A stretch of 64,000 nt of DNA from Nesterenkonia sp. E16_10 (GTDB taxonomy: Bacteria; Actinomycetota; Actinomycetes; Actinomycetales; Micrococcaceae): assembly GCF_017347085.1 (NCBI RefSeq), contig NZ_JADPSA010000038.1, forward strand, positions 1 to 64,000, in the 5' to 3' direction. Position 1 is the stretch's first letter, and each line of letters opens with the position of its first letter. Positions 38,715-52,965 of this stretch are shown piece by piece. The notes below the pieces were generated by a model. The model did not search any database, was not told where the DNA came from, and saw nothing but the letters and a program-made list of their open reading frames with translations. Made by a program: the position numbers and the translations under genes.

Positions 38715-38788
38715 CGTTGAGGGGCGGATTCTCCGAGTATTTTGGGCCTTCTCGCCCATGAAATACCCGCAGAAACCGCCCCTCAACG
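38715..38788. repeat. Large palindromic repeat, copy 1
   Basis: A 74-base near-perfect palindrome with outer arms CGTTGAGGGGCGG and CCGCCCCTCAACG and an inner stem closing on GGGC/GCCC. It lies between convergent genes and can act as a bidirectional terminator. Bases 38717-38737 are identical to 52894-52914 in copy 2, so it is a dispersed REP-like family. Confidence 0.8.
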
Positions 38789-38815
38789 TGGGGGCTGTTG
38801 GCTGGGGGAGGGGGA

Positions 38816-39856
38816 TCAGGGGAAGTCGAGGGTCAGCGAGGGCCGTGAGTTCGCTGGCGGACGTGTGGCACCCGCCTGAGCATGGTCTGTCTGGGCTGAA
38901 CCGGCGCAGGAGGCCACTCGGGAGACGCAGACGCAGAGCTTGGTATCGGCACTCTTCTCGGCCTCGTTGAAGAAGACGTCCCGGTGATCGATGACCCCGT
39001 TCAGCTGCTCGGCCTTGACCACGCAGAGCCCGCATTCGCCCTTGCGGCAGTCATACATCGGCTCCACGCCGACGCGCTCCAGCGCCTCCAGGATGGACTC
39101 GTCCGGGGAGACCACGGTGTGGCGCTCGGAGCCGCGGATGTGCAGCTCGAACTCCTCGGGATCGAACCAGCCGCTGTTGCCGAAGGTCTCATAGCGCAGG
39201 TTCGGCAGCGGCAGCTCGCGGTCGATCCAGGCCCGGCGCACCGCGTCCATCAGCCGGATGGGCCCGCACATGTAGAACTCGGTGGAGGCGTCCACCTGCC
39301 CGAGCAGCTCCTGGACGTCGAGCACGTCGCCCTCGTCATCCACCGAGAGTCGCAGCCGGGGGCCGTGCTCCTCGCGCAGCTCATCCAGGAAGGCCATGGC
39401 CGGGCGGGAGCGTCCGACGAAGATCAGCTGATAGTCCGCGCCGAGCCGCTTGAGCACCCGGGCCATCGAGTGGATCGCCGTGATGCCCACCCCTCCGGCG
39501 AGCAGCACGTAACGCGGCGCGCCCACGCGCAGCGGGAAGTTCTGCACCGGGGAGGTGACCTCCAGGGAATCTCCGGGTTCAAGAGCATGCATGAACCGGG
39601 AACCGCCGCGCGAGGTGGGGGAGCGGCGCACCCCGATCTTCACCCAGCTGCCGTCGGCTGCGCCTTCGACCACCGAGTAGGAGCGGACCGACTCAGAGTC
39701 GCGGCGACCCGGGGCGGTGCGCACGTCGATGTGCGCGCCGGGCTCGGTGAACAGCGGCCGTTCCCCGGCCAGGACGATCTCAGCGATCTCCGCGGCGGCG
39801 GCGCGGCGCGAGGTCACCTCGGCGCGCTGCCAGTGCAGCTGGGTTCCCTGTGACAC
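38816..39856 (-). CDS. vanB: Vanillate O-demethylase reductase component (VanB-like)
   Basis: A 346-residue PDR/VanB-type reductase passing electrons from NAD(P)H to the Rieske oxygenase. Domains in order: FMN/FAD domain (VRSYSVVEG; GGSRFMHALEPGDSLEV), nucleotide domain (YVLLAGGVGITAIHSM; EFYMCGPIRLM) and a C-terminal 2Fe-2S ferredoxin (CRKGECGLC and CVC). After the last iron ligand there is an unusual Ala/Pro-rich insertion before a family-like LTLDFP end. It starts 6 bases after vanA and is its partner. Confidence 0.87.
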   Translation of the reverse strand: MSQGTQLHWQRAEVTSRRAAAAEIAEIVLAGERPLFTEPGAHIDVRTAPGRRDSESVRSYSVVEGAADGSWVKIGVRRSPTSRGGSRFMHALEPGDSLEVTSPVQNFPLRVGAPRYVLLAGGVGITAIHSMARVLKRLGADYQLIFVGRSRPAMAFLDELREEHGPRLRLSVDDEGDVLDVQELLGQVDASTEFYMCGPIRLMDAVRRAWIDRELPLPNLRYETFGNSGWFDPEEFELHIRGSERHTVVSPDESILEALERVGVEPMYDCRKGECGLCVVKAEQLNGVIDHRDVFFNEAEKSADTKLCVCVSRVASCAGSAQTDHAQAGATRPPANSRPSLTLDFP

Positions 39857-39862
39857 GCGGGA

Positions 39863-40981
39863 TCAGCCCTTGGCGTCGGTGAGGTCGGCGTCGGAGGCCA
39901 TCATCGTGCGCTCGGCCTCCACGGCGCGCTGGATCAGCCGGCGCACCCACATGCCGCCGGCGTCGATGTTGAGGTTGTAGAACTCGTGGTCCGGGTTGTC
40001 CACGATGGCCTGCTGCTGCGCGGTGAGCATCTCCTCGTCCTCCGCGAAGACCCCGTGCACGCCGTCGCGCAGCTCGGTGGTGATCCGCTGGCTCTCCAGC
40101 CGGTAGTTGCGCATGAAGGCCCAGTAGTACATGGCATTGGCCTGATCCACCGGAGAGATCGTGTTCATCACGTACCCGTTGACGCCCTGGCTGCGATCCC
40201 CGGTGAGTCCACCGGTGCCCGCCTTGGCCACGCCCACATCGATGCAGATGGTCGAGGGCATCTGGAACTCGATGATCTGCCAGCGGTCCACCTTGCCCTC
40301 GAAGTCCGGGAACTTGTCCCGCATGTTCTTCAGCCAGAACGGCGGGGCGTCGATGTTCTCCATGAATCGGGAGACGGTCACCGTGCTGTCATCGTGGGTG
40401 ACCTCGATGTCGGACTCGCTGAGCTCCTTCTGCCCGATCGAGGAGGAATGCAGGAACTCCTCATGGGTGAGATCCATCAGGTTGTCCAGCACCAGCTGGT
40501 AGTTCGCACGCACCTCGATGGTCTTGCCATCGCCGGCCCACTCGTCGGAGCCCATCTGGTGCATGTCCGGGATCAGCGCCGCGTCGGCGAGCATCGGATC
40601 TCCCGGCCAGACCCAGATGAAGCGGTGCCGCTCCACCACCGGGAAGGAGTTCACCATCGCCGAGGGGTTGATGGTCTTCTGCGCGGGCATGAAGGTGCAG
40701 CGACCGGCTGAGTTGTACTGCAGGCCGTGATACGGGCACTGGACCCCGTCCGGACCCACCAGGGACCCCATGGACAGCGGAGCGAGCCGGTGCCAGCAGG
40801 CGTCGGTCAACGCGACCGGGCGGCCCTCTTCGGTCCGGTACAGCGCCATCGGGCGGTCCGCGATCTTCCGGGAGAGGATCCTCTTGCGATTGACCTCGTG
40901 ATCCCATCCGGCCACGTACCAGGCGTTGAGCGGGTAGGCCATGTTCTTCGCGGTGGCGCCGCTTGGGCTGAGATCGGTCAT
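39863..40981 (-). CDS. vanA: Vanillate O-demethylase oxygenase (Rieske, VanA-like)
   Basis: A 372-residue Rieske non-haem iron oxygenase. ATG 40981 follows AGGAGGCGGAC. The Rieske cluster ligands are Cys62-x-His64 and Cys82-x2-His85 (CWHR, CPYHG). The mononuclear iron site is in DNLMDLTHEEFLHSS. The protein belongs to the VanA-type demethylases, which turn vanillate into protocatechuate and formaldehyde. Gene order vanA-vanB divergent from a PadR regulator matches the Corynebacterium glutamicum van locus. A related methoxy-aromatic substrate cannot be excluded. Confidence 0.87.
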   Translation of the reverse strand: MTDLSPSGATAKNMAYPLNAWYVAGWDHEVNRKRILSRKIADRPMALYRTEEGRPVALTDACWHRLAPLSMGSLVGPDGVQCPYHGLQYNSAGRCTFMPAQKTINPSAMVNSFPVVERHRFIWVWPGDPMLADAALIPDMHQMGSDEWAGDGKTIEVRANYQLVLDNLMDLTHEEFLHSSSIGQKELSESDIEVTHDDSTVTVSRFMENIDAPPFWLKNMRDKFPDFEGKVDRWQIIEFQMPSTICIDVGVAKAGTGGLTGDRSQGVNGYVMNTISPVDQANAMYYWAFMRNYRLESQRITTELRDGVHGVFAEDEEMLTAQQQAIVDNPDHEFYNLNIDAGGMWVRRLIQRAVEAERTMMASDADLTDAKG

Positions 40982-41042
40982 GTCCGCCTCCTGGGACTCA
41001 AGGACGCCGCGGAACCGATCGCGGTCCACTCAGCAACGCCAC

Positions 41043-41060
41043 TAGCTATCTACATAGTTA
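41043..41060. promoter_or_regulatory. Candidate PadR/VanR operator
   Basis: TAGCTAT, four bases (ctac), then ATAGTTA: an inverted repeat with one mismatch between arms, in the divergent vanA/vanR gap. A related partial element (ATAGCT-ctgg-ATATAGT) lies at 41081-41097. PadR proteins bind such AT-rich dyads and release on binding phenolic acids. Confidence 0.55.
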
Positions 41061-41138
41061 TTTGTGTTCTGGGTCACAGAATAGCTCTGGATATAGTGGA
41101 GGGCAAGCACCCGCCCCTTCTCGAGAGGTCCCGACACC

Positions 41139-41747
41139 GTGAGTCTGCGCTACGCCATTCTGGCGATCCTCACCGCGGCTCCGCTGACCGGATATGAGAC
41201 CGCGAAGCGCTTCGAGGGTTCGGTCGGGCACGTCTGGCACGCCCCGGACTCCCAGATCTACCCCGAGCTGCGCCGGATGGAGGCCGAGGCCCTGGTCGAG
41301 GGCAGGGAGGAGCGCTGGGGCCCCAAGGGGACCAAGACGCGCTACTACATCACGGAGTCCGGGGAGGCGGCGTTCCGCAGCTGGATGGCGACCCCGCTGA
41401 AGTACGCTCCCTGGCGCGACGTGGCCCATATGCAGGCGGCATACTTCGAATGGGCAGAGCCCGCGAGCGTGCGCATGCACTTGGAACAGCACGCGGCGCA
41501 CTACACCGAGCAGATCGAGCAGTGGAGCAGCCAGATCGAAGCGATCCGATCCCATGAACACCCGATGATCGCCGCCCGGCTCGAGCGCTATCCGGCTGAG
41601 CAGCACGAGCGCATCGTCGCGTTCAAAGCCTTCGCCTATGAGGGCCTGATCCGAACCGCCCAGGCCGAGGTGGACTGGGCGCACAGCGGCCTGGAGCTGC
41701 TGGAACAGCTCGACGGCGACGTGCCGGTCGCCGAGGCTGAAAACTAG
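41139..41747 (+). CDS. vanR: PadR-family repressor (VanR-like)
   Basis: A 202-residue PadR regulator starting at GTG 41139. The N-terminal winged helix (LRYAILAILTAAPLTGYETAKRF, SQIYPELRRMEAEALVEGR, TRYYITESGEAAFRSWMA) is followed by a helical dimerisation domain (EQHAAHYTEQIEQWSSQIEAI). It is divergent from vanAB, which it should repress until vanillate or a related acid binds. In C. glutamicum VanR is also a PadR protein. Its 3' end overlaps the convergent CoA-ligase gene by 4 bases. Confidence 0.82.
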   Translation: MSLRYAILAILTAAPLTGYETAKRFEGSVGHVWHAPDSQIYPELRRMEAEALVEGREERWGPKGTKTRYYITESGEAAFRSWMATPLKYAPWRDVAHMQAAYFEWAEPASVRMHLEQHAAHYTEQIEQWSSQIEAIRSHEHPMIAARLERYPAEQHERIVAFKAFAYEGLIRTAQAEVDWAHSGLELLEQLDGDVPVAEAEN

Positions 41748-43300
41748 GCGTACTGCCGGCGCAGGTCCGGCTTGCGGATCTTGCCCGAGGCGGTGCGCGG
41801 CATGGACTCCACGAAGACCACCGACTTCGGGATCTTATAGCGGGCCAGCTTCCCGTCCAGATGATGCAGCACCTGTTCCTCGGTGAGCTCGTGACCCTCG
41901 CGCACCACGATCACCGCCCGTGGGACCTCGCCCCAGCGGGCATCTTCGACCCCGATGACGGCCACGGCGGCCACCGCCTCCAGGGCGGCGATCTGCTGCT
42001 CCACCTGGGCGGGGTAGATGTTCTCTCCGCCGGAGATGATCATGTCCTTGAGCCGATCGGAGATGAACAGGAAACCATCCTCGTCGAGGTGGCCCATGTC
42101 CCCGGTCTTGAGCCAGAGGCCGTCTTCCTCCCGCACGAAGGAGGAGGCGGTGGCCTCGGGTCGGTTCCAGTACTCGGCGATCACATTGGGACCCTGCACC
42201 TGGATCTCACCGACCTCGCCCACGGCGCAGGGCTGATCCATCGGGTCCACCACCCGGACATCGGTGTGGAAATGGGCCAGCCCGCCGGAGCCCTGCTTCG
42301 GTCGGGAGTACGCCGGAGGCAGGGTGGTGGCACCCGGGGAGGTCTCGGTCATCCCGTAGCCCATGGTGAACGCGAGCCCGCGACTCTCGTAGGCGTCGAG
42401 CACCCGCAGCGGCACCGCGGAGCCGCCGCAGGTGAGGTTGCGCAGCGAGGTGATGTCGGTGTGCTCCCACTGCGGGTGCTCACAGATCAGCTGGAACGTG
42501 GTGGGTACCCCGGAGATATTGGTGACCCGGTGCTCCTCGATCAGCGCCAGCACCCGGCCCGGTTCGAAGCGCTGCTCCAGGATGATGCTGCCGCCCTTGA
42601 GCAGCACCGGCAGCGCCCCCTGACCCAGCGCCGCCACGTGGAACAGCGGCGCGATCATCAGCGCCACGTCCTTGCTGGAGAGATCGAAGTCGGTGAGCAC
42701 ATTGATCGCGTTCCAGGTCAGGTTCCCGTGGGTGAGCATCGCCCCCTTGGGGTTCCCGGTGGTCCCGGAGGTGTAGAGGATCACCGCGAGGTCTTCCAGG
42801 CCGACGGCGACGTCGGGGCGCTGCTCGTCCCCTGAGGTCAGCACCGCCTCGAACTCCTCCGTGGTCACCGGGAACACTGTGGTCGTCTCGGGTGGACGCG
42901 CTGCCTCGGCCACGGTGAGCACCAGTTCCACGGAGGTGTCCTGGCAGGCCGGTGCGGCCAGCGCCGCCAGCGGGGTCGAGGTGACCAATATCCGGGCGCC
43001 TGAGTCCTGCAGTGCGAACTGCACCTCCGGCGGGGCCAGGCGGGTGTTCAGCGGCACGAAGACCGCACCGAGGCTTCCGGTGGCGAAGAGCGTCTCGAGA
43101 AACGCCGCGGAGTTCTCGCCCAGATAGGCCACTCGGTCCCCGGGCCTGATCCCGCGGTCGGTGAGGGCGTTGGCGAGCTTGTCGATGCGCCGCGCCAGCT
43201 GATCGTAGGTCTGCTCTCCGGCCGCACTGATCAGCGCCGTCGCTCCGCGAGAGCGCACCCTGCGCCGATGGATCCAATCGCCGAGTCCGTGGTTCTTCAT
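41744..43300 (-). CDS. Acyl-CoA synthetase, candidate hydroxycinnamate-CoA ligase
   Basis: A 518-residue ANL-superfamily AMP-forming ligase. Motifs: ILYTSGTTGNPKGAMLTHGN (P-loop), GYGMTETSPGATTLPP, GLWLKTGDMGHLDEDGFLFISDRLKDMIISGGENIYP and C-terminal PRTASGKIRK with catalytic Lys. It activates a carboxylic acid as CoA thioester. As last gene of the side-chain-degrading operon, it should supply the CoA ester (feruloyl- or coumaroyl-CoA), like PhdA or CouL. Its ATG overlaps the substrate-binding gene stop. Substrate is inferred from context. Confidence 0.85.
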   Translation of the reverse strand: MKNHGLGDWIHRRRVRSRGATALISAAGEQTYDQLARRIDKLANALTDRGIRPGDRVAYLGENSAAFLETLFATGSLGAVFVPLNTRLAPPEVQFALQDSGARILVTSTPLAALAAPACQDTSVELVLTVAEAARPPETTTVFPVTTEEFEAVLTSGDEQRPDVAVGLEDLAVILYTSGTTGNPKGAMLTHGNLTWNAINVLTDFDLSSKDVALMIAPLFHVAALGQGALPVLLKGGSIILEQRFEPGRVLALIEEHRVTNISGVPTTFQLICEHPQWEHTDITSLRNLTCGGSAVPLRVLDAYESRGLAFTMGYGMTETSPGATTLPPAYSRPKQGSGGLAHFHTDVRVVDPMDQPCAVGEVGEIQVQGPNVIAEYWNRPEATASSFVREEDGLWLKTGDMGHLDEDGFLFISDRLKDMIISGGENIYPAQVEQQIAALEAVAAVAVIGVEDARWGEVPRAVIVVREGHELTEEQVLHHLDGKLARYKIPKSVVFVESMPRTASGKIRKPDLRRQYA

Positions 43301-44301
43301 CGTGCGCCCTCCCAGACCAGGTCATCGACGTTCGGGACCTCGCCGATAAGCCCGTGGCGTTCCGAGATCTCCGCGACCTCACCGAGGGAATCAAGATTGA
43401 CGTCCTCCGGGAACGCGGGAATGCTGATCTCTTCCAGCATGGACTCGTCGATGCTCGTGTACTCCAGCAGGACATCGCGCACCGCCTCCGGGTTCTCCCC
43501 GGCGTAGACCTGAGACTCCCCCACCGCGGTATGGAAGCTCTCGACCAGCTCGGGGTCCTCGTCGATCAGCTGCTGGGAGGTGAAGTAGGTGGCGACGCCC
43601 AGCTCGTCGACGACGTCGGCGTAGGGAGCGAAGATTCGATCCCAACCCTCGTCGTCGGCCATGCTCGCGAACGGGTCGACGGCGAAGATCGCGTCCACAT
43701 TGTCAGCCTCGAGCTGGGCGAGCATGTCCGGGAAGCCCACTTCGACGAAGTCGACGGCGGCGGGGTCCCCTCCTGCCTCCAGGACGCCCTGGGAGATCAT
43801 CGAGTCGGAGATGTTGTTGAGCGTGTTCACCGCCACCCGCTGGCCCTCGAGGTCCTCCGCGGATTCGATGCCCGAGTCCGGCTTGACCAGCACGGCGCCG
43901 AAGTCGTTCTCGGAATCGCCCGTGGTCTGCGGTCCTGCGGCCACGGTCTGCAGCGGCAGCCCGTTGTCGGCGGCGATGAGCAGGGAGGTCACGTTGGAGA
44001 ACCCGAAGTCCATATCCCCGGAGGAGACCGCGGGGATGATCGCGGCGCCGCCCTGCGCGAGGGTCAGCGTCAGGTCGATGCCGTGCTCTTCAAAAATGCC
44101 TTCCTGCTGACCGAGGTAGATCGGGGCGACATCGACGATCGGGATGACCCCCACCTCCACCTCGGTGAGCTCGCCGTCTGCTGGGGCGGAGTCGTCCTCG
44201 GCCGGTTCCCCGTCGGCGTCGCCGGAGGGGGAGCCGCTGCCGCAGGCGGAAAGGGCAAGGACGGCGCAGAGAGCGAAGGCCCCGCGAGAGAGATGTTTCA
44301 T
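43297..44301 (-). CDS. ABC importer substrate-binding lipoprotein 2 (TauA/SsuA/NMT1-like)
   Basis: A 334-residue lipoprotein starting at ATG 44301, with lipobox LALSAC. The mature part is a type-II periplasmic binding fold (VGVIPIVDVAPIYLGQQEGIFEEHGIDLTLTLAQGGAAIIPAVSSGDMDFGFSN in order). It parallels the upstream gene in length and motifs, so the pair is a tandem duplication. It would deliver an acid to the permeases at 50919 and 51689. Placement inside the degradation operon argues for an aromatic acid ligand rather than a sulfonate. Confidence 0.85.
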   Translation of the reverse strand: MKHLSRGAFALCAVLALSACGSGSPSGDADGEPAEDDSAPADGELTEVEVGVIPIVDVAPIYLGQQEGIFEEHGIDLTLTLAQGGAAIIPAVSSGDMDFGFSNVTSLLIAADNGLPLQTVAAGPQTTGDSENDFGAVLVKPDSGIESAEDLEGQRVAVNTLNNISDSMISQGVLEAGGDPAAVDFVEVGFPDMLAQLEADNVDAIFAVDPFASMADDEGWDRIFAPYADVVDELGVATYFTSQQLIDEDPELVESFHTAVGESQVYAGENPEAVRDVLLEYTSIDESMLEEISIPAFPEDVNLDSLGEVAEISERHGLIGEVPNVDDLVWEGAR

Positions 44302-44365
44302 GACGGTTCTCCGATGTGAGCAGTGGTGCGGTGTGAGAAGTGGTGGGATGAGAGCAGGTGGTGCT

Positions 44366-44400
44366 GGGTGGGTGGTGAGAGAGTTTCCCACCACCCACCC
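44366..44400 (-). other. Intercistronic stem-loop between the two binding-protein genes
   Basis: GGGTGGGTGGTG (44366-44377) is exactly complementary to CACCACCCACCC (44389-44400) with an 11-base loop. No T-run follows on the minus strand, so it is more likely an mRNA-stabilising or partial-attenuation element, raising expression of the first binding protein over downstream genes. Confidence 0.55.
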
Positions 44401-44412
44401 GGCAGGCGGCGT

Positions 44413-45420
44413 CTACTCGCCTTCGAAGTACAGCGTGGAGGTGTCCGGCTCGTCACTGATGAAGTCGAACTTCACCATGAGCGCCCCGGCCTCCTCGATC
44501 TGCTCTCTGCGGATCTCGCCGTCGAGCTCCTCCATGCGCAGATTCTCGGCTGCCTCCTCGGGCAGGTCGATGAACTCCGGAAGCATGGCGCGCACGCCCT
44601 CCTCGTCGGCCTCCGCGGCCTCCAGCGATTCGGTCATCGCATCGCTGAAGGCCTGGGCGACCTCAGGGTTCTCTTCGATGTACTCCCCGGAGCTGAAGCT
44701 CACCATGGTGGGCATGCCCGGGATCGAATCCTGGAAGGAGTAGCCGACCAGCTGATTGGCATCGTCGGCCAACGCGTTGCTCAAGAAGGGCTCGGGCACC
44801 CAGATCGCATCAGTATTGCCCTGTTCCAGCTGGGCCTGCATATCCGGGAACGGCATCTCGGAGAACTCCACGGCCGACGGGTCGCCGCCGGCCTGCTCCA
44901 CGGATTCCATGATGGTCAGATCCCCCTGGGTCTGCAGCGCGTTGACCGAAACCGTGTTGCCCTCGAGATCGTCCCAGTCCTCGATCCCGCTCTCGGTGGT
45001 GGCGACCACGCCGGCGATGTCATCGCCCTCGGCCAAGGAGTTCGAGTAACCCGTGACGATCTTCATATCCAGTCCACGGCTGTTGGCGTTGAGCACCGAG
45101 TTGGGGTTGCCCACGCCAAACTGCAGCTGCTGGTTGCTCACGGCGGGCAGCATCGCGGCACCGGCGTTGGAGTCGGAGAGCTCGACGTCGAGCCCGTGCT
45201 CCTCGAAGATGCCGTTCTCGATGCCGTAATAGATCCCCACCGAGGGGGCGATGGGCAGCACGCCCACGGTGATCTCGGTCATCTCGCCGTTCTCGCTCGC
45301 GGTCTCGGCGCCATTGCCGTCCTCCTCTTCGTCCCCGGCCGGGGACCCCGAGCCGCAGGCGCTCAATGCCAGGATGCTGACCGCGGCGAGTCCGGTGATG
45401 GATGCGATGTTCTTCTTCAT
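44413..45420 (-). CDS. ABC importer substrate-binding lipoprotein 1 (TauA/SsuA/NMT1-like)
   Basis: A 335-residue lipoprotein with signal and lipobox LALSAC, an acidic linker, then the binding fold (ITVGVLPIAPSVGIYYGIENGIFEEHGLDVELSDSN in order, FPDMQAQLEQGNTDAIWVPEPFL). It is a paralogue of the next gene, sharing the FPDM-AQLE-(G/D)N-DAI segment. Two binding proteins for one permease pair could widen substrate range, for example different hydroxycinnamates or their shortened products. It lies downstream of the MaoC gene in the same operon. Confidence 0.85.
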   Translation of the reverse strand: MKKNIASITGLAAVSILALSACGSGSPAGDEEEDGNGAETASENGEMTEITVGVLPIAPSVGIYYGIENGIFEEHGLDVELSDSNAGAAMLPAVSNQQLQFGVGNPNSVLNANSRGLDMKIVTGYSNSLAEGDDIAGVVATTESGIEDWDDLEGNTVSVNALQTQGDLTIMESVEQAGGDPSAVEFSEMPFPDMQAQLEQGNTDAIWVPEPFLSNALADDANQLVGYSFQDSIPGMPTMVSFSSGEYIEENPEVAQAFSDAMTESLEAAEADEEGVRAMLPEFIDLPEEAAENLRMEELDGEIRREQIEEAGALMVKFDFISDEPDTSTLYFEGE

Positions 45421-45517
45421 GACTGCTCCTTGAGGTGCGGGTCGCAGAACGGCGGCCCTCGATGGGTGTGACGTGTCGTTGAGCGGAGTGGGTGCAACAA
45501 AGATGCGCAGGTGCGGA

Positions 45518-45991
45518 TCAGGGGTAGAAGCGCGCCAGGAAGGTCGCCACGACGGCGGGGCGCTCCTGGCCTTCGACCTCGAAGGTCGCGTCCACGACCA
45601 GGTGGAGGCCTCCGCCCTTGACCTCTTCGACGGCGCTGATGGTGCCGCGCATCCGCACCTTGGAGCCGACCTTCACCGGCGCGGTGAAGCGGACCTTGTC
45701 CAGTCCGTAGTTGAGCTTGGTGCTGACGTCGGCGACGTCGAAGAGCTCGCCCCAGAAGGGGATGATCAGGGACAGGGTGAGGAAGCCGTGGGCGATGGGC
45801 GCGCCGAACGGGCCGTCCTTGGCGCGCTCGGGATCCACGTGGATCCACTGGTGATCATCGGTGGCGTCGGCGAAGGTGTTGACCATCTCCTGGGTGATCT
45901 CGCGCCAGGCGGTCTCTCCCAGATCGGTGCCGGCCATCGTGCGGGCGTCCTCGAACGAGACGACGGTGCGGGCGGTGGGGGTGTCGGTCAT
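45518..45991 (-). CDS. phdE: MaoC-family hydratase (PhdE/CouH-like)
   Basis: A 157-residue hot-dog-fold hydratase; ATG 45991 follows AAGGAG. The catalytic signature is DDHQWIHVDPERAKDGPFGAPIAHGFLTLSL, with the Asp/His dyad. It should add water across the 2,3 double bond of a cinnamoyl-CoA-type thioester. Its position at the end of the SDR-amidohydrolase-ACAD-MaoC order equals phdE in the C. glutamicum phenylpropanoid cluster and CouH in Rhodococcus. The specific substrate is inferred. Confidence 0.82.
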   Translation of the reverse strand: MTDTPTARTVVSFEDARTMAGTDLGETAWREITQEMVNTFADATDDHQWIHVDPERAKDGPFGAPIAHGFLTLSLIIPFWGELFDVADVSTKLNYGLDKVRFTAPVKVGSKVRMRGTISAVEEVKGGGLHLVVDATFEVEGQERPAVVATFLARFYP

Positions 45992-46129
45992 GCTGCTCCT
46001 TGAGGTGGCGGGTGGTGGATTCACTGTGGGTACGGATGCGACTGTGAGAGTGCGTGTATGGGTGTGCTCTGGGTCACAATGGGTTGTGGATAGGCTTCGG
46101 CCCGGGCGAGAAGCCCCGGGCGGTCCCGG

Positions 46130-47341
46130 TCAGGTGAAGGCGCCCACCCCGGTCACGGCGCGCCCCACGATCAGCGCATTGATCTCGTGGGTGCCCTCGT
46201 AGGAGTAGATCGCCTCGGCGTCGGCGTGGAAGCGGGCGACGTCGGTGTCGAGCGTGATCCCGTTGCCGCCGCAGACCTCGCGGGCCAGTGCCACGGTCTC
46301 GCGCAGCCGCAGCGAGGTGTACATCTTGGCCAGCGCGGAGTTCTCGTCGCGGTAGATCCCGGCCGCCTGCTGCTCGGTGAGCTGGACGACCATGCCCAGC
46401 GCGGAGGTCAGGTTGCCCAGCATCACCGCGAGCTTCTCCTGGATCAGCTGGAATCCAGCGATGGGCCGGCCGAACTGCTCCCGGTGCGTGACATAGGCCA
46501 GGGCGGCCTCGTAGGCGCCGGCCATGGCCCCGGTGGCCATCCAGGCGACATCGGAGCGCATTCGGCGCAGGCATCCGGCGACGTCGGTGAAGCTGTTGAT
46601 CTGCTGCAGCCGAGCGCTGTCCGGGACCCGGACCTGCCGGTAGCTGATGTCGGCGTTCTGCATGATCCGCAGCGAGGCCTTGCGCGGGATGACCTCCATG
46701 GAGACACCCGGTGCCGAGGTGGGCACCAGGAAGCACTTCACCTGCCCGTCCGCGGCGTCGCGGGCGAAGGTGGCGACGACGTCGGCGGCGATCGCTCCGC
46801 CGATCCAGCGTTTGGCGCCGTCGATGATCCAGTCCCCGGTCTCCGGGTCCTGGGTGGCGCTGGTGGCGAGACCGCCTGCGACATCGGAGCCGTGGTCGGG
46901 TTCGGTGAGCCCGAAGACCCCGGTCAGTTCATGGGAGACGATCTTGGCATCGAGCTCCCGCGCCTGCTGCGCGGAGCCGCCCATGGTGCAGACCGTCCGG
47001 AACAGACTGGCCTGCGCGTTGTAGTAGGTGGCGACATTGATGTCGCATCGGGTGAGCTCGAAGTTCCGGAAGCCCAGGAAGATGTCGCGGATTCCTTCTC
47101 CGGCCTCGCGCAGGGCGGGCGGGTCCATCAGCTCCAGGCCGCGCAGCGGGGCGATGATCTCGTCGGGGAAGCGCGCCTCGTCCCAGGCCGCGTTGAGGTG
47201 TGGATGGACCTGTTCGGCGAGCACCTCGCGCAGATCGGTGATCACGCGGCGCTCGGCGGTGCTGAGCCGTTCGGCGAAGCCATAGAGGTCCGACGGGATC
47301 ACCGTGCCGGTGGCTCGGTCACGCATGGCTGGTTCACGCAT
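46130..47341 (-). CDS. phdD: Acyl-CoA dehydrogenase (PhdD-like)
   Basis: A 403-residue flavoprotein. Features: VFGLTEPDHGSDVAGG (flavin-contacting segment), DGAKRWIGGAIAADVV, REQFGRPIAGFQLIQEKLAVM and CGGNGITLDTDVARFHADAEAIYSYEGTHEINALIVGRAV, which contains a glutaryl-CoA-dehydrogenase-like catalytic region. It would desaturate phenylpropionyl-CoA-type esters so saturated side chains can enter the pathway. Start ATG 47341 has GGGAG upstream; the N-terminus repeats REPAM-like units, so ATG 47326 is possible. It overlaps the amidohydrolase gene. Confidence 0.85.
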   Translation of the reverse strand: MREPAMRDRATGTVIPSDLYGFAERLSTAERRVITDLREVLAEQVHPHLNAAWDEARFPDEIIAPLRGLELMDPPALREAGEGIRDIFLGFRNFELTRCDINVATYYNAQASLFRTVCTMGGSAQQARELDAKIVSHELTGVFGLTEPDHGSDVAGGLATSATQDPETGDWIIDGAKRWIGGAIAADVVATFARDAADGQVKCFLVPTSAPGVSMEVIPRKASLRIMQNADISYRQVRVPDSARLQQINSFTDVAGCLRRMRSDVAWMATGAMAGAYEAALAYVTHREQFGRPIAGFQLIQEKLAVMLGNLTSALGMVVQLTEQQAAGIYRDENSALAKMYTSLRLRETVALAREVCGGNGITLDTDVARFHADAEAIYSYEGTHEINALIVGRAVTGVGAFT

Positions 47342-48236
47342 CGCTGGCTCCCGCAGCATCGAGGCCGAGCAGCTTCACCGCATTGTCCTTCAGGATCTTG
47401 GGCCGGACCCCGTCCTTGATCGGCAGATCGGCGAAGGCGGCGAGCCACTTCTCCGGGGTGATCAACGGATAGTCGGTGCCGAAGAGCAGCTTCGCGGAGA
47501 GGATGTTGTTCGCGCTGCGGACCAGAGCCTCAGGGAAGTACTTCGGGGACCAGCCGGAGAGATCGATGTAGACATTGGACTTATGCGTCGCGATCGAGAT
47601 CGCCTCGTCCTGCCAGGGCACCGAGGGGTGCGCCATGATGATCGGCAGCGCGGGGAAGTCCGCGGCGACGTCGTCGAGCAGCAGCGGGTTGGAGTACTTC
47701 AGCTTCAGCCCCGCCCCGCCGGGGGTGCCGGCGCCCATGCCGTTCTGTCCGGTGTGGAAGATCAGCGGCAGCCCGATCTCCTGCAGCGTCTCCCACAGCG
47801 GGTAGAACTGGCGGTCCGAGGGGTCGAATCCCTGCACCGTGGGATGGAATTTGAACCCGCGCACGCCCAGCTCCGCGGCCTGCCGCCGCGCCTCCTCGAG
47901 GGCCGCGGGGCCCGTGCGCGGGTCCACCGAGCCGAAGGGCAGCAGCACGTCGTTGTTGCGCAGGCACCCCGCCACCAGATCGTCGATGGAGTTCGGCGCG
48001 TGCTGCATCTGGGTGCGGGCGTCCACGGTGAAGACCACCGCCGCCATCCGGTGGGCCCGGTACACCTCCGCGATGCGATCGATCGACGGGGTCCGCTCGG
48101 CGGTCTTGAAGTACTTCGCCGAGGCCTCGAAGAACAGCTCGGGGAGGGCGCGATGCCCCTCGGCGTCCATCTCCAGGTGGACATGGGTGTCCACCGCCTC
48201 GATGGCCTGCACGTCGATGGCAGATCGGTAGCGCAT
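47334..48236 (-). CDS. phdC: Amidohydrolase-2 family C-C hydrolase (PhdC/CouO-like)
   Basis: A 300-residue TIM-barrel metal enzyme: DTHVHLEMDAEG (first metal His pair), GVRGFKFHPTVQG, LIFHTGQNG, IIMAHPSVPWQDEA and LLFGTDYPLITPEKW (Asp). In the phd/cou pathways this family replaces a thiolase, cleaving the 3-oxo-3-arylpropionyl-CoA to release the aromatic acid. The absence of any thiolase gene in this cluster supports that role. It lies between SDR and acyl-CoA dehydrogenase genes, as in C. glutamicum. Confidence 0.82.
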   Translation of the reverse strand: MRYRSAIDVQAIEAVDTHVHLEMDAEGHRALPELFFEASAKYFKTAERTPSIDRIAEVYRAHRMAAVVFTVDARTQMQHAPNSIDDLVAGCLRNNDVLLPFGSVDPRTGPAALEEARRQAAELGVRGFKFHPTVQGFDPSDRQFYPLWETLQEIGLPLIFHTGQNGMGAGTPGGAGLKLKYSNPLLLDDVAADFPALPIIMAHPSVPWQDEAISIATHKSNVYIDLSGWSPKYFPEALVRSANNILSAKLLFGTDYPLITPEKWLAAFADLPIKDGVRPKILKDNAVKLLGLDAAGASDA

Positions 48237-48319
48237 CGGGGGGTTCCTCTCCTGTTCGGGCTGGGGCTGCGGTGCGGGCTGTTCCGGGTGTGTGTCCGGG
48301 GTGTGTGCCCCGGTGCGGA

Positions 48320-49243
48320 CTAGCTGGTGGGCTGCAGCTCAGCGGGAAGCTCGGGCATGGACTCGCCCACGGACTGCAGGTGAGCGCCGAGGATCTCGCG
48401 GCCCTGGGCCTGCAGCGTCGCGTAGTCCCAGCCGCCGTCGTGGAACTCCTCGAGAACGGGCTCCGGGTGGCTCCAGACCTGCAGGCGGTCGCCGCCGGCG
48501 CCGATGACCTGTCCGGTGATGCCCTCCACGGCGTCGGAGGCCAGGAAGGCGACGACGCCGGCCGCGTCTTGGGCCGTGCCGAAGCCGAGACCCTTGCGGA
48601 AGAAGTCGGGCATGGGCTGGCCCTGCTCATCGGCCTCCACGGCCTTCTGGAAGTACGGCACGGTCTTGGTCATCGCGGTGGCGGCCACCGGGATCACGGC
48701 ATTGACGCTGACTCCGGCGCGCTTGAACTCCAGCGCCCAGGTGCGCACCATGCCCACGATGCCGGCCTTGGCGGCGGCGTAGTTGGTCTGTCCGAAGTTT
48801 CCACGCTGACCGGTGGGGGAGCCGATGCACACGACCCTCCCGGCCACCCCCTCGGTCTTGAAGTGCTTGAACGCGGCCCGGACACAGGTGAAGGTGCCCT
48901 TAAGGTGAACGTTGATCACGGCGTCGAAGTCCTCATCGGACATCTTCAGCAACGACTTGTCGCGCAGGATCCCGGCGTTGGTGACCAGGATGTCGAGGCC
49001 GCCGAAGCTGGTCACCGCGGCGTCGACCAGCTCTTCGGCGGTCTCGGTGGAGCCCACCGGGGCCACCACGGCGACGGCGCGACCGCCGGCGGATTCGATT
49101 CCCGCCACGGCGGCGTCGGCAGTGGCCTGATCCACGTCGTTGATCACGACGGCGGCGCCCTGGGCGGCGAGTTCCTGGGCGTATGCGAGCCCCAGTCCGG
49201 CTCCGGACCCGGTCACGATGGCTACCTTGCCTTGTAACGACAT
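48320..49243 (-). CDS. phdB: SDR-family 3-hydroxyacyl-CoA dehydrogenase (PhdB/CouN-like)
   Basis: A 307-residue short-chain dehydrogenase; ATG 49243 follows AAGGAGAG. Cofactor motif TGSGAGLGLAYAQ, NDVDQATAD for the second strand, NAGILRDKSLLKM, catalytic Ser in CIGSPTGQRG and Tyr-x3-Lys in NYAAAKAG. It should oxidise 3-hydroxy-3-arylpropionyl-CoA to the 3-oxo ester. It is the first gene of the leftward catabolic operon, divergent from the MarR regulator, with a dyad operator in the gap. Confidence 0.85.
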   Translation of the reverse strand: MSLQGKVAIVTGSGAGLGLAYAQELAAQGAAVVINDVDQATADAAVAGIESAGGRAVAVVAPVGSTETAEELVDAAVTSFGGLDILVTNAGILRDKSLLKMSDEDFDAVINVHLKGTFTCVRAAFKHFKTEGVAGRVVCIGSPTGQRGNFGQTNYAAAKAGIVGMVRTWALEFKRAGVSVNAVIPVAATAMTKTVPYFQKAVEADEQGQPMPDFFRKGLGFGTAQDAAGVVAFLASDAVEGITGQVIGAGGDRLQVWSHPEPVLEEFHDGGWDYATLQAQGREILGAHLQSVGESMPELPAELQPTS

Positions 49244-49304
49244 AGTCTCTCCTTCTGTAAGGCCTCGCGGCCGCTGCTTACTGTGATCCATCTCACTTGC
49301 TAAT

Positions 49305-49319
49305 ATTGAGAAAGTCAAT
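49305..49319. promoter_or_regulatory. Candidate MarR operator ATTGA-N5-TCAAT
   Basis: A perfect 5+5 inverted repeat with 5-base spacer (GAAAG) in the divergent gap between the SDR and MarR genes. The same TTGA-N5-TCAA core recurs at 52856-52868 upstream of the ABC permease genes, next to TTCA-N5-TCAA at 52840-52852, and both loci share AAGTCAATGATT. Confidence 0.6.
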
Positions 49320-49375
49320 GATTTGTCTTCTCACCCGTTCAATCCCGCCCCCGGGAACCGCTGCTAGGAGAAACC

Positions 49376-49870
49376 ATGCCCCCCTCGACCCCTGCCGACG
49401 CGGTGCGCGCATCGTCTCCGACCAAGCCGACGGCCGGAGGCGAGGAGCGTTTCCAGCGCTCCGACCTGGCCCAGGAGGTCGCCTTCCTCACCGCGCGTGC
49501 CCGGGGCCGGGGCAACGCCCTGGCCAATCGGCTGCTGGCCGACCTGGATCTGAAGGTGCGGCCGTTCTCCGTGTTGGCCATGGCGTGTTCTGGGACGAAC
49601 CCCTCGCAGCGCGAGCTGGGCAGCTTCTTGGACCTCGACCCCAGCCAGGTGGTCGCGCTGGTCGACATGCTCGAGACGCGCGGCGCGATCCGCCGGGAGG
49701 CCGATCCGCGAGACCGGCGCTCCAAGATCCTGGTCGCCACCGAGGCCGGCCACGAGCTCTACGCCCAGGCGGTGCAGCGCACCCGCGAGGCCGAGGAGCA
49801 GACCCTGCACGCGCTGAGCCCGGCCGAGCGGGATCAGCTGCGCGAGCTGCTCTCACGAATCGTGTTCTGA
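49376..49870 (+). CDS. phdR: MarR-family repressor (PhdR/CouR-like)
   Basis: A 164-residue MarR regulator starting at ATG 49376. The winged helix reads VRPFSVLAMACSGTNPSQRELGSFLDLDPSQVVALVDMLETRGAIRREADPRDRRSKILVATEAG in order, with the wing DPRDRRSK. The first 25 residues are disordered. It is divergent from the catabolic operon; in Rhodococcus the homologous CouR is released by hydroxycinnamoyl-CoA. It probably also controls the ABC importer, given shared dyads. Confidence 0.82.
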   Translation: MPPSTPADAVRASSPTKPTAGGEERFQRSDLAQEVAFLTARARGRGNALANRLLADLDLKVRPFSVLAMACSGTNPSQRELGSFLDLDPSQVVALVDMLETRGAIRREADPRDRRSKILVATEAGHELYAQAVQRTREAEEQTLHALSPAERDQLRELLSRIVF

Positions 49871-49909
49871 GCCGCGCGGCTCGAGGGCGGCAGCTCCACG
49901 CCGTCGGGC

Positions 49910-50818
49910 CTATCGCATCGCGGCCGCCTCCTCGGGCCGGAAGCCCTTCTTCGCGAGCTGGATCTGCTCGTAGACGTGGTGGCGCAGCTCGGCGAAGCGC
50001 TGCGAGGATCTGGTCTCGAGCTGATCGCGCTCGGCCGGAAGGTCCACCAGCACGTCCTCCTGGATGATGGTGGGCGAGGAGGACAGGATGATGACCCGTT
50101 CGCCCAGGTAGACCGACTCGTCGATGTCGTGGGTCACGAAGAGCACCGAGACGCCGAGCTTCTTCCAGATGCCGCGGACCAGGTCCTCAAGGTCCGCGCG
50201 GGTCTGCGCATCCACTGCCGCGAAGGGCTCATCCATCAGCAGCACCTCCGGCTGATACGCCACCGCGCGGGCGATCGCCACGCGCTGCTGCATGCCGCCG
50301 GAGAGCTGCCAGGGGTAGGACTTCGGGACATGGGCCAGACCCACGGCCTCCAGGGCCTGTTCCACCGCCTCCTTCCGGGCGGCCTTCTCCATCCCCTGGT
50401 TCTTCAGCGGCAGCTCCACGTTCTCGGCCACCCGCAGCCACGGGAACAGGGATCGGCCGTATTCCTGGAAGACCACGGCCATCGACTTCGGCGGGCCGGT
50501 GACCTTCTGTCCGTGCAGGGTGACCTCGCCCGCGCTGGGGGCCATCAGCCCCGAGATGCACTTGAGCAGCGTGGTCTTGCCGGAGCCGGAGGGGCCCACC
50601 AGGCAGGCCAGCTGGCCCTTGGGCAGATCGAAGGTCAGGTTCCGCACCGCCTCGATGTCGCCGCCGTCGGTGTGGTAGACCTTCTTCAGGTTCTGCACCG
50701 AGAGCATCGGCTGCTCATCCGGCATGGTCCTGCCCACCGGGATCCTGCCGTCCGGGGTGTCTTGGATGCTGGACTGGCTGACCACGGGGTTCGTGGGCTG
50801 TGAGTGTTCGGAGGTCAT
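49910..50818 (-). CDS. ABC importer ATPase (TauB/SsuB-like)
   Basis: A 302-residue ATP-binding protein; ATG 50818 is preferred for the upstream CGGAG. Walker A GPSGSGKTT, Q-loop VFQEYGRSLFPW, signature LSGGMQQR, Walker B VLLMDEPF and switch His in FVTHDIDES are intact. The first 35 residues are an extra disordered extension. It should energise the two permeases upstream in the same leftward operon. Substrate is inferred from linkage to the catabolic genes; sulfonate import is the family alternative. Confidence 0.88.
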   Translation of the reverse strand: MTSEHSQPTNPVVSQSSIQDTPDGRIPVGRTMPDEQPMLSVQNLKKVYHTDGGDIEAVRNLTFDLPKGQLACLVGPSGSGKTTLLKCISGLMAPSAGEVTLHGQKVTGPPKSMAVVFQEYGRSLFPWLRVAENVELPLKNQGMEKAARKEAVEQALEAVGLAHVPKSYPWQLSGGMQQRVAIARAVAYQPEVLLMDEPFAAVDAQTRADLEDLVRGIWKKLGVSVLFVTHDIDESVYLGERVIILSSSPTIIQEDVLVDLPAERDQLETRSSQRFAELRHHVYEQIQLAKKGFRPEEAAAMR

Positions 50819-50918
50819 CTCCGGGTCCCTTCTCTGGAAGTGCAGCGTGTGCATGGGTGCATCGTCTTTAGGAGTGCGTCGTCATGGGCGGCGTCGGCGC
50901 AGCCCGGGCGTGGCCGGC

Positions 50919-51692
50919 TCAGGCAGACTGCTCGATCTCGCGCAGCCCGTGGTACCAGCCCAGGATCCAGCGCTCGGCGAGCTGGAAGATGAACGAGAGC
51001 ACCACCCCGATCAGTCCCAGCAGCACGATTCCGGACCACATCTCCGGGATGGCGAAGGAGCGCTGGAACTGCACGATGGCGAAGCCGAGCCCCTCGGTGG
51101 AGGCAAACATCTCCGAGATCACCATCAGGATCAGTGCGATCGAGAGCGACTGTCGGATGCCTGCCATGATCTGTGGCATGGCCGAGGGCAGGATCAGGTA
51201 GCGGACGGTGTTGACCCGGTTCATGCCATAGGTGCGGCTGGTATCTGCGAGCACCTCGTCCATGGACCGCACACCTTCGATCGTGTTGAGCAGGATCGGC
51301 CAGACCGCACCCAGCACGATCACCGAGACCTTCATCTCGTCGCCGATGCCGATCAGCAGCATGATTACCGGGATCAGCACCGGTGGTGGGATGGCTCGGA
51401 AGAACTCCAGCGTGGGTTCCAGCAGGGCGCGCAGCCAGCGGAAGGAGCCGATCAGCAGTCCGCCCACGATGCCGATCAGGATCGAGAGCGCGATGCCGAT
51501 CATCAGTCTCCCCAGCGAGGGGAAGACGTCGCTGAGGAAGCGCTCGCTGGTCCAGGTCTCGAAAAAGGTCTCGATCAGCAGCTGCGGGGTAGGGACGAAG
51601 AAGCTGGCCTCGCCCAGCGTGGCGAGGAACCAGATGAAGATCAGGATCAGCGGAAGCGCCACGATGTGCAGCGAAGTACGGATATATGTCAT
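50919..51692 (-). CDS. ABC importer permease (TauC/SsuC-like) 2
   Basis: A 257-residue inner-membrane permease with about six helices and the BPD coupling motif in EVLADTSRTYGMNRVNTVRYLILPSAMPQIMAGIRQSLSIALILMV. It overlaps the first permease gene by 4 bases, so a heterodimeric channel is likely. It ends about 100 bases before the ATPase gene. Confidence 0.87.
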   Translation of the reverse strand: MTYIRTSLHIVALPLILIFIWFLATLGEASFFVPTPQLLIETFFETWTSERFLSDVFPSLGRLMIGIALSILIGIVGGLLIGSFRWLRALLEPTLEFFRAIPPPVLIPVIMLLIGIGDEMKVSVIVLGAVWPILLNTIEGVRSMDEVLADTSRTYGMNRVNTVRYLILPSAMPQIMAGIRQSLSIALILMVISEMFASTEGLGFAIVQFQRSFAIPEMWSGIVLLGLIGVVLSFIFQLAERWILGWYHGLREIEQSA

Positions 51693-52738
51693 GCCGCCAC
51701 CTCCGTGCGGACCGAGGAATGCCAGGACAGGATCTTGCGCTCGATCATGCGCATGACCAGGTTGACCAGGACCCCGAGCAGGCCGGTTGCCAGCACGAGG
51801 GCGTACATGGAGACGTAGTTGCCTCCGGACTGGGCCCGGCTGATCTCAGCTCCCAGGCCTGGAGTGCCGATGATCAGTCCGGCGGTGATGGCCAGGATCA
51901 GCGCCACCGCGGCCGCGAGGCGAACACCGGTCATCACGTAGGGCAGTGCCGTCGGGAAGATCACGTAGCGTATCCGGGCGAGGGGCCCGAGGCCGTAGGA
52001 GCGGGCGGTGTTCATCGCGACCGAGTCGACATCGGCGACCCCGTAGAGCACCTGGATCAGCACCTGCCAGAAGCAGGCGTAGACGATCAGCATCAGGGCG
52101 GACTCGATGTCGGTGCCCAGGAGCAGCACCGCCAGCGGGATCAGCGCCACCGAGGGAACGGGGCGCAGGAACTCGATCGTGGAGTTCGTGAAGCGCCGCA
52201 GGAACGTCGGGGATCCGATGATGAAGCCCAGCACGGTGGCCAGCACCACCGCGATGATCATGCCCAGCGCCCAGGCCCGCATCGTGTCATACACCGAGAC
52301 CCAGAAATCGGTCAGCCCGAAGTTGCTGATCAGTCCACCGATCGCCTCGGAGGCCGGGGGCATGAAGCGCGCATTGACCAATCCGGTCACCGGCAGGAGC
52401 TCCCAGGTCAGGAGCATGCCGACCACACCGGCAGCCCCGAGTGCCTTGGTGCTCCAGCCGCGTCGGCGTCGTCGTCGGGCGCGCCCTGGCCCGGAGGTCG
52501 TGGCGCGACCTGTGGCGCCGCTCTGCGCCACCGAGGTCAGTGGAGCGGCCGGGTCCGGACGCGTGGCGATGTCCAGCGCCGCCGAGGTCGAGACGTCGGT
52601 GTGCCGGCGGATGTCACCGCCTCGGCGGTCCGCGGCGGCAGAGGACTCCCAGCGGTGCAGCCGGTGGACCTCCTCCTCGCGGTTGCGTGGGGCGTCGCCA
52701 CGAGGATCCAGCCCCGGGCTCGAGCTCTCATCAGTCAT
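51689..52738 (-). CDS. ABC importer permease (TauC/SsuC-like) 1 with long basic N-terminus
   Basis: A 349-residue permease. The first 90 residues are soluble, charged and end in GRARRRRRRG before the first membrane helix; this extension is unusual for the family. The coupling motif is in MNTARSYGLGPLARIRYVIFPTALPYVMTGVRLAAAVALILAI. It is the first gene of the importer operon, preceded by two TTGA/TTCA-N5-TCAA dyads. A shorter start is possible, but no internal ATG lies immediately before the first helix. Confidence 0.85.
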   Translation of the reverse strand: MTDESSSPGLDPRGDAPRNREEEVHRLHRWESSAAADRRGGDIRRHTDVSTSAALDIATRPDPAAPLTSVAQSGATGRATTSGPGRARRRRRRGWSTKALGAAGVVGMLLTWELLPVTGLVNARFMPPASEAIGGLISNFGLTDFWVSVYDTMRAWALGMIIAVVLATVLGFIIGSPTFLRRFTNSTIEFLRPVPSVALIPLAVLLLGTDIESALMLIVYACFWQVLIQVLYGVADVDSVAMNTARSYGLGPLARIRYVIFPTALPYVMTGVRLAAAVALILAITAGLIIGTPGLGAEISRAQSGGNYVSMYALVLATGLLGVLVNLVMRMIERKILSWHSSVRTEVAA

Positions 52739-52839: not shown

Positions 52840-52868
52840 TTCAAGAAGTCAATGATTGAGATTTTCAA
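52840..52868. promoter_or_regulatory. Two MarR-type dyads upstream of the importer operon
   Basis: TTCA-agaag-TCAA (52840-52852) and TTGA-gattt-TCAA (52856-52868) lie side by side about 100-130 bases before the first permease start. They match the dyad at 49305-49319 and share the 12-mer AAGTCAATGATT. Confidence 0.55.
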
Positions 52869-52891
52869 GGACACGACCCCCCCCACCCACG

Positions 52892-52965
52892 CATTGAGGG
52901 GCGGATTCTCCGAGCATCTGAAGGGCCAGACGGCCTGAAACGCTCGTAGAATCCGCCCCTCAATG
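52892..52965. repeat. Large palindromic repeat, copy 2
   Basis: A 74-base palindrome with outer arms CATTGAGGGGCGGATTCT and AGAATCCGCCCCTCAATG and an inner GGGCC/GGCC end, flanked by C-rich and G-rich runs. It lies just downstream of the leftward ABC-2 permease gene, where it can act as terminator. It shares 21 identical bases with copy 1. Confidence 0.8.

Follow-up and report, generated by a model that had tools for sequence, protein, structure and literature searches.

A probable hydroxycinnamate-to-protocatechuate island with a TauT/SsuA-type ABC importer in Nesterenkonia sp. E16_10

Results and Discussion

Gene content and proposed function of the island

A 64-kb window (the whole stretch of DNA analyzed here) from the 3.30-Mb, 51-contig genome of Nesterenkonia sp. 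E16_10 contains an island of 14 genes at positions 38816 to 52738, which probably is inducible, takes up hydroxycinnamates, ferulate above all, and funnels them to protocatechuate. All of the genes that a first-pass annotation of the sequence had named in this interval were found, with Pfam matches and intact catalytic motifs. The annotation had read them as two known actinobacterial modules placed side by side, vanAB with its PadR-type regulator and a phd/cou-type operon, and the best solved relatives of the proteins and a CouR box, described below, support that reading. Because gene order is kept in nine loci of the same genus (L024 to L032) at protein identities of 71 to 98%, we regard the island as more than a chance assembly. 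vanAB is absent from four of the nine (L028, L029, L031, and L032), and neither padR nor the first lipoprotein gene had a match in L032. The G+C content of the window's 2-kb stretches ranges from 62 to 71%.

The genes for a short-chain dehydrogenase/reductase (SDR), an amidohydrolase, an acyl-coenzyme A (acyl-CoA) dehydrogenase, a MaoC protein, two binding lipoproteins, and a ligase run in one direction and likely form an operon. The ligase gene and padR converge, tail to tail; padR is divergent from vanA and the MarR gene from the SDR gene, and the operon for an ATP-binding cassette (ABC) importer points toward the MarR gene. Both binding-protein genes thus sit within the enzyme operon, apart from the ABC ATPase/permease operon.

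The acyl-CoA ligase (41744 to 43300, minus strand, as are all genes of this operon) has feruloyl-CoA synthetase 8wev as its best solved relative (511 bits) and scores 522 bits with NF004837 (cut-off, 476). The MaoC protein (45518 to 46024; PF01575, 3.3e-25) is of the enoyl-CoA hydratase type. The acyl-CoA dehydrogenase (46130 to 47359; PF00441 and PF02770), whose best solved relatives are ACX4 and glutaryl-CoA dehydrogenases, is probably an arylpropionyl-CoA dehydrogenase. The CouO/PhdC-like amidohydrolase_2 protein (47334 to 48236; PF04909, 5.8e-55) is a probable 3-oxoacyl-CoA ketohydrolase, and its metal-site residues H18, H20, H161, H203, and D255 are invariant across 11 aligned sequences. 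The SDR (48320 to 49243; PF13561 and PF00106; YAAAK and GSGAGLG motifs) is a probable 3-hydroxyacyl-CoA dehydrogenase; its open reading frame (ORF) opens at 49318, but since that start overlaps the operator-like site described below, the ATG at 49243, which is preceded by a ribosome-binding site, is the likely start. As the annotation had noted, a thiolase is missing: at E values up to 1e-5, none of the island's 14 proteins matched a thiolase family in Pfam. The phd pathway ends in a 3-oxoacyl-CoA ketohydrolase (PMC5479773) and the cou pathway in CouO, an enzyme of the amidohydrolase superfamily (PMC4737184); a hydrolytic last step of this type fits the missing thiolase, and by analogy the island amidohydrolase would hydrolyze the 3-oxoacyl-CoA. 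CoA ligase, hydratase, SDR, and amidohydrolase, found together without a thiolase, place the operon in the phd/cou group.

From these genes and from the phd and cou pathways we infer substrates, transport, and the direction of regulation as follows. Two surface lipoproteins would pass the acid to the TauT/SsuA-type ABC importer, and the ligase would form the CoA thioester; the acyl-CoA dehydrogenase would let saturated phenylpropionates enter. The MaoC protein would then hydrate and the SDR oxidize the thioester, and the amidohydrolase, rather than a thiolase, would cleave the 3-oxoacyl-CoA with water to give vanillate and acetyl-CoA. VanAB would demethylate vanillate to protocatechuate, with ring opening by the products of pca genes elsewhere in the genome. 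MarR would repress the enzyme and ABC operons until an aryl-CoA ester forms, and the VanR-like PadR protein would repress vanAB until vanillate forms. The annotation had called this a complete upper route to protocatechuate, a description that stands for ferulate (and, by pathway logic, caffeate) and fails for p-coumarate, for which the predicted route stops at 4-hydroxybenzoate.

The pathway itself is known. The phd cluster of Corynebacterium glutamicum is described as turning ferulate into vanillate and acetyl-CoA by a ligase, a hydratase, a 3-hydroxyacyl-CoA dehydrogenase, and a ketohydrolase (PMC5479773), as proposed here; the island adds vanAB and an ABC importer within one locus. It shares the CouO type of last step with the cou genes of Rhodococcus jostii RHA1 (PMC4737184) and has, in addition to these, the acyl-CoA dehydrogenase and the ABC importer. 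The ferulate proteome of Streptomyces scabies (SCAB_15591-15621 and SCAB_15301-15321) is reported to include feruloyl-CoA synthetase, enoyl-CoA hydratase, amidohydrolase, dehydrogenase, and vanillate monooxygenase, as in the island, but the two gene sets there lie ~30 locus tags apart with an IclR-type regulator, and the account of these proteins consulted in PMC6904314 does not mention a hydroxycinnamate ABC importer.

Operator-like boxes upstream of the enzyme and importer operons

The two best solved relatives of the MarR-family regulator (49376 to 49870, plus strand) are 3fm5 and 5cyv (79 bits each), the latter of which we take to be CouR of RHA1. CouR is a MarR-type repressor encoded divergently from the couN operon, and its box, cATTGA-N5-TCAATg, overlaps −35 boxes (PMC4737184). 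The same arrangement is seen here, with an exact box (ATTGA-GAAAG-TCAAT) at 49305 to 49319 in the promoter region shared by the MarR and SDR genes. A one-mismatch box (ATTGA-GATTT-TCAAG) lies at 52855 to 52869, its center 124 bp upstream of the ABC operon. Aligned to 5cyv, the island regulator keeps basic residues, Lys and Arg, at CouR positions Arg36 and Arg38; Lys36 has been reported in the CouR homologues of C. glutamicum and Arthrobacter (PMC4737184). We call the protein CouR-like and go no further, for reasons given below.

To judge how widely the boxes are conserved, we surveyed 100 sources (99 loci and the window), of which 68 had an SDR gene (≥55% identity) and 25 an ABC operon, in each case with enough upstream DNA. 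A box stood upstream of the SDR gene in 18, 48, and 60 of the 68 at ≤0, ≤1, and ≤2 mismatches, and upstream of the ABC operon in 2, 13, and 17 of the 25; the reversed motif gave 0, 0, and 1 for the former and always 0 for the latter, although this is a weak control, the reversed motif being tenfold rarer in the genome of the strain itself (2 versus 20 sites). The 20 CouR motif sites in 3.30 Mb, two of which are the island boxes, correspond to chance expectations of ~0.1 of 68 and ~0.06 of 25. The ABC operon box is present in the window and in all eight of the loci L024 to L031, and 9 of the 12 genus loci with an ABC operon near couO have one at ≤1 mismatch. Since 9 of the 13 ABC boxes come from one genus, they are not independent; the others are from Arthrobacter sp. 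VKM Ac-2550 (L054) and Microbacterium (L095, L096, and L102). Micrococcus terreus (G032) has a one-mismatch box ~110 bp upstream of an ABC operon that is itself ~15 kb from couO.

A second exact CouR box in the E16_10 genome, at C42:5861, is probably a chance occurrence: it lies inside a NUDIX-domain ORF near a polyA-polymerase-like gene.

The ABC importer and alternative carriers

The importer operon (minus strand) encodes a TauB/SsuB-type ATPase (49910 to 50854; PF00005, 2.9e-35; 214 bits with NF008421, below its cut-off of 357) and two permeases (50919 to 51692, PF00528, 9.9e-25, with SsuC/TauC models below cut-off; 51689 to 52738, PF00528, 3.3e-23). The NMT1/SsuA-type binding lipoproteins 1 (43297 to 44394, likely starting at 44301; PF09084, 1.7e-33) and 2 (44413 to 45420; PF09084, 1.9e-25), both on the minus strand, each carry the lipobox LSAC. 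An AlphaFold2 model of lipoprotein 2 (mean pLDDT, 87) has an SsuA-like predicted fold, with 3ix1 and SsuA as the nearest folds. NMT1-type binding lipoproteins, binding-protein-dependent permeases, and the ATPase together assign the importer to the TauT/SsuA type, but not to the taurine or sulfonate importers proper: those of the SsuA, TauA, TauB, TauC, and SsuC models that matched score below their curated cut-offs.

Aromatic import by this family is already known. The TauT family is described as including an aromatic sulfonate porter (SsuABC) and the phthalate system OphFGH, and five COG0715 binding proteins of Rhodopseudomonas palustris bound other carboxylates, amines, and thiamine (PMC3223731). 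An ABC importer for aromatic compounds, CouPSTU, has been described in R. palustris (PMC3610893), and its CouP protein binds hydroxycinnamates (PMC13406360). Searches of the open-licence PubMed Central (PMC) literature listed this ABC uptake of hydroxycinnamates, no actinobacterial case, and no link of the TauT/SsuA-type family to hydroxycinnamates. The island lipoproteins presumably belong to another binding-protein family than CouP. The annotation had considered the combination of the pathway with ABC importers undescribed; the combination is not unique to this genome and the importer family is known for aromatics, yet for the phd/cou pathway the same literature yielded no paper on it.

The distribution of carriers was examined by scanning named genomes with the amidohydrolase and keeping the best 80 of at least 575 confirmed loci, to which the counts of core loci below refer. 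A core of amidohydrolase, SDR, and MaoC was present in 52 of the 80; loci cut by contig ends were scored as lacking the unseen genes and the counts are not corrected for relatedness, which lowers their weight as support. Thirteen core loci had the ABC importer, 8 had vanAB, and 6 had both (Cryobacterium L057 and Micromonospora L072, L075, L088, L103, and L106), so that an island unique to the E16_10 genome was rejected. Genes for a major facilitator superfamily (MFS) carrier of the probed types (probes from Paenarthrobacter L049, Rhodococcus L081, and the PcaK-like gene of the strain itself; other MFS types would escape) occurred in 16 of the 52, and never together with the ABC importer; 23 loci had neither (Fisher test, P = 0.0048). 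The phd cluster of C. glutamicum, we assume, also has an MFS carrier. We lean slightly toward the view that Actinobacteria use two interchangeable hydroxycinnamate carriers within the same CouR-type regulon, in some cases an MFS symporter and in others an ABC importer of the TauT/SsuA type whose lipoproteins are encoded in the catabolic operon. The ABC carrier is the less usual one and is tied to the pathway by its operator-like box.

Among the soluble aromatics that grass cell walls release, ferulate and p-coumarate are major ones, and to our knowledge little is known of their uptake in Gram-positive bacteria. If the proposal is correct, the ABC form would provide high-affinity uptake through a binding-protein family with no hydroxycinnamate role reported in the open-licence PMC literature. 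Controlled by the repressor of the pathway itself, a high-affinity ABC importer would account for scavenging when the acids are scarce, and it would give lignin-conversion strains a carrier to adopt.

The enzymes could act as proposed while the importer carries vanillate, hydroxybenzoates, phthalate-like acids, or a sulfonate, with hydroxycinnamates entering by diffusion or another carrier. This is the alternative that fares best, and we consider it possible but unlikely. The nearest named relatives of the binding proteins bind sulfonates, taurine, or thiamine or its precursors. The ABC operon goes with vanAB (6 of 13 core loci with the importer versus 2 of 39 without, although five of the six are from Micromonospora), and in one genome (G033) it adjoins pcaH on a contig other than that of couO, which leaves room for import of other aromatic acids. 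A non-hydroxycinnamate importer is, however, at odds with the CouR boxes that precede 13 of the 25 ABC operons and with the position of both binding-protein genes inside the enzyme operon, and a sulfonate importer with the subthreshold scores of the taurine and sulfonate models.

Still less probable is an island mainly for saturated phenylpropionates (dihydroferulate, phloretate, and phenylpropionate), in which the acyl-CoA dehydrogenase would catalyze the key step and cinnamates would be side substrates. Such a dehydrogenase (≥45% identity) is indeed encoded in 36 of the 52 core loci and in all eight of the loci L024 to L031, but the other 16 core loci show none, and the closest solved relative of the ligase is a feruloyl-CoA synthetase.

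In loci L040, L083, L100, L107, and L112, an amidohydrolase gene (44 to 60% identity) has genes for MaoC, SDR, ligase, and dehydrogenase proteins nearby in a different arrangement, perhaps a sister pathway for another substrate. Contig C12 of M. terreus (L163 and L033) holds the ABC operon, pcaH, and couO within ~17 kb.

vanAB as an optional part of the island

The VanA-like Rieske oxygenase (39863 to 41029, minus strand, possibly starting at ATG 40981) is a probable vanillate O-demethylase. Its VanA_C domain (2.6e-45) scores 155 bits against a cut-off of 23.5 and covers the whole profile, and a Rieske domain (3.3e-18) with the CWH...CPYH motif and the iron-site motif DNLMDLTHEEFLH are present. 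The adjacent VanB-like reductase (38816 to 39856, minus strand) has a C-terminal 2Fe-2S ferredoxin domain (Fer2, 4.8e-10, residues 239 to 314) with a CxxxxCxxC...C motif. Rieske center, mononuclear iron site, VanA_C domain, and VanB-type reductase identify the pair as VanAB-type, with vanillate as the predicted substrate.

The PadR-family regulator (41139 to 41747, plus strand; PF03551, 8.7e-13) aligns over residues 1 to 190 of 202 with 6lg2/5z7b (199 bits), structures that we take to be C. glutamicum VanR. The stretch between vanA and padR holds a candidate VanR/PadR operator, the dyad CTAT-N4-ATAG at 41046 to 41057. Within the 150 bp examined, the dyad occurred in all eight loci with vanA (the window, L024 to L027, L030, L035, and L057) and in none of the three without it (L028, L029, and L031). 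Near-full-length PadR similarity and the dyad before vanA mark the regulator as VanR-type. VanR of C. glutamicum, for which a structure exists, is reported to be inhibited by vanillate, and in the vanR-vanABK locus this PadR-type repressor gene adjoins vanAB (PMC8358305), as here; the island differs in that vanAB is not accompanied by a vanK carrier gene and in its regulator gene being divergent from vanAB and tail to tail with the ligase gene.

vanA (E up to 1e-30) was not found in the genomes of L028, L029, and L031 (G016, G011, and G027), nor in G010. L028, L029, and L031 keep padR without vanA, which makes the van pair an optional component. A survey of 30 genomes of the genus, including that of E16_10, found the couO cluster (couO gene at ≥62% identity) in 12; vanA was present in 7 of these 12 and in none of the 18 others (Fisher test; relatedness uncorrected). 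By another, improbable alternative, vanAB encodes an O-demethylase for a different methoxylated acid and only happens to lie beside a phd-type operon to which it is unrelated. In its favor, padR is retained in three relatives from which vanAB and the dyad are cleanly missing, and the solved oxygenase nearest to VanA acts on dicamba. Against it, the VanA_C domain spans its whole profile, a VanR-like PadR gene adjoins vanAB, vanA occurs in the genus only alongside the couO cluster, and five Micromonospora loci encode, close to this core, a VanA of only 35 to 37% identity.

Possible decaying copies were seen in relatives, namely, a vanA with an internal stop codon in L135 (G041:C6:127293-128369) and, in L019/L023 (G017:C1), a couO match interrupted by a stop.

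Points against the proposed function

Several observations weigh against an inducible hydroxycinnamate island. In the alignment to 5cyv, the island MarR protein has Glu at both Asp10 and His117, the phenol-binding residues of CouR; its effector may therefore be other than p-coumaroyl-CoA itself. The AlphaFold2 model of the amidohydrolase (mean pLDDT, 89) has mostly decarboxylases as its nearest folds (2,6-dihydroxybenzoate decarboxylase, LigW2, and BB4693), with the hydrolase LigY at ranks 47 to 48, and so the fold alone cannot separate a hydrolase from a decarboxylase. The nearest solved relatives of VanA are dicamba O-demethylase (DdmC, 160 bits) and an unnamed Rieske protein rather than a proven vanillate demethylase. 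Of the 12 genomes of the genus that have the couO cluster, 5 lack vanAB, and one of these 5 (G008) is only 65% complete. Twelve of the 25 ABC operons have no box at ≤1 mismatch. Among the genus loci with an ABC operon near couO, L032 has two-mismatch boxes only and L038 and L040 have none, and no box at ≤1 mismatch was found in the ABC regions examined from G009, whose operon lies farther off on the couO contig, or from G033.

Lower pathway and flanking sequences

The annotation had proposed a search for protocatechuate ring-cleavage genes elsewhere, and these are present. On contig C11 (L123, C11:8500-28000), pcaH (337.8; cut-off, 296.4), pcaG (183.8; cut-off, 126.25), and pcaC (169.2; cut-off, 155.7) pass their curated cut-offs, while pcaB-like (315.7; cut-off, 355.75) and pcaD-like (191.7; cut-off, 255.85) genes fall below theirs. 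The cluster also holds a pobA-like gene, whose product passes NF006091 (455 versus 351) and fails TIGR02360 (365 versus 538.7), and next to it a gene for an aromatic-acid MFS carrier (PcaK-like) that scores below its cut-off. With pobA-like and pca genes elsewhere in the genome, completion of p-coumarate degradation is possible, though not by the island alone. Within the genus, pcaH was present in all 12 genomes with couO and in 9 of the 18 without (Fisher test; relatedness uncorrected). Separately, contig C13 (L125:7720-10220) encodes a Pyr_redox_2 reductase and, next to it, the alpha subunit of a ring-hydroxylating oxygenase, perhaps for another aromatic pathway.

The island is flanked by a palindrome of ~70 bp (arm, TTGAGGGGCGGATTCTC), at ~38716 to 38790 and 52893 to 52965. 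That it marks a mobile island was not supported: the arm has 29 matches genome-wide, making ~19 elements by pairing, and these are scattered across the genome. The palindrome is a candidate terminator or repetitive extragenic palindromic (REP)-like element. Before padR in the relatives that lack vanAB, it is whole in L028, and its right arm is present in L029 and L031.

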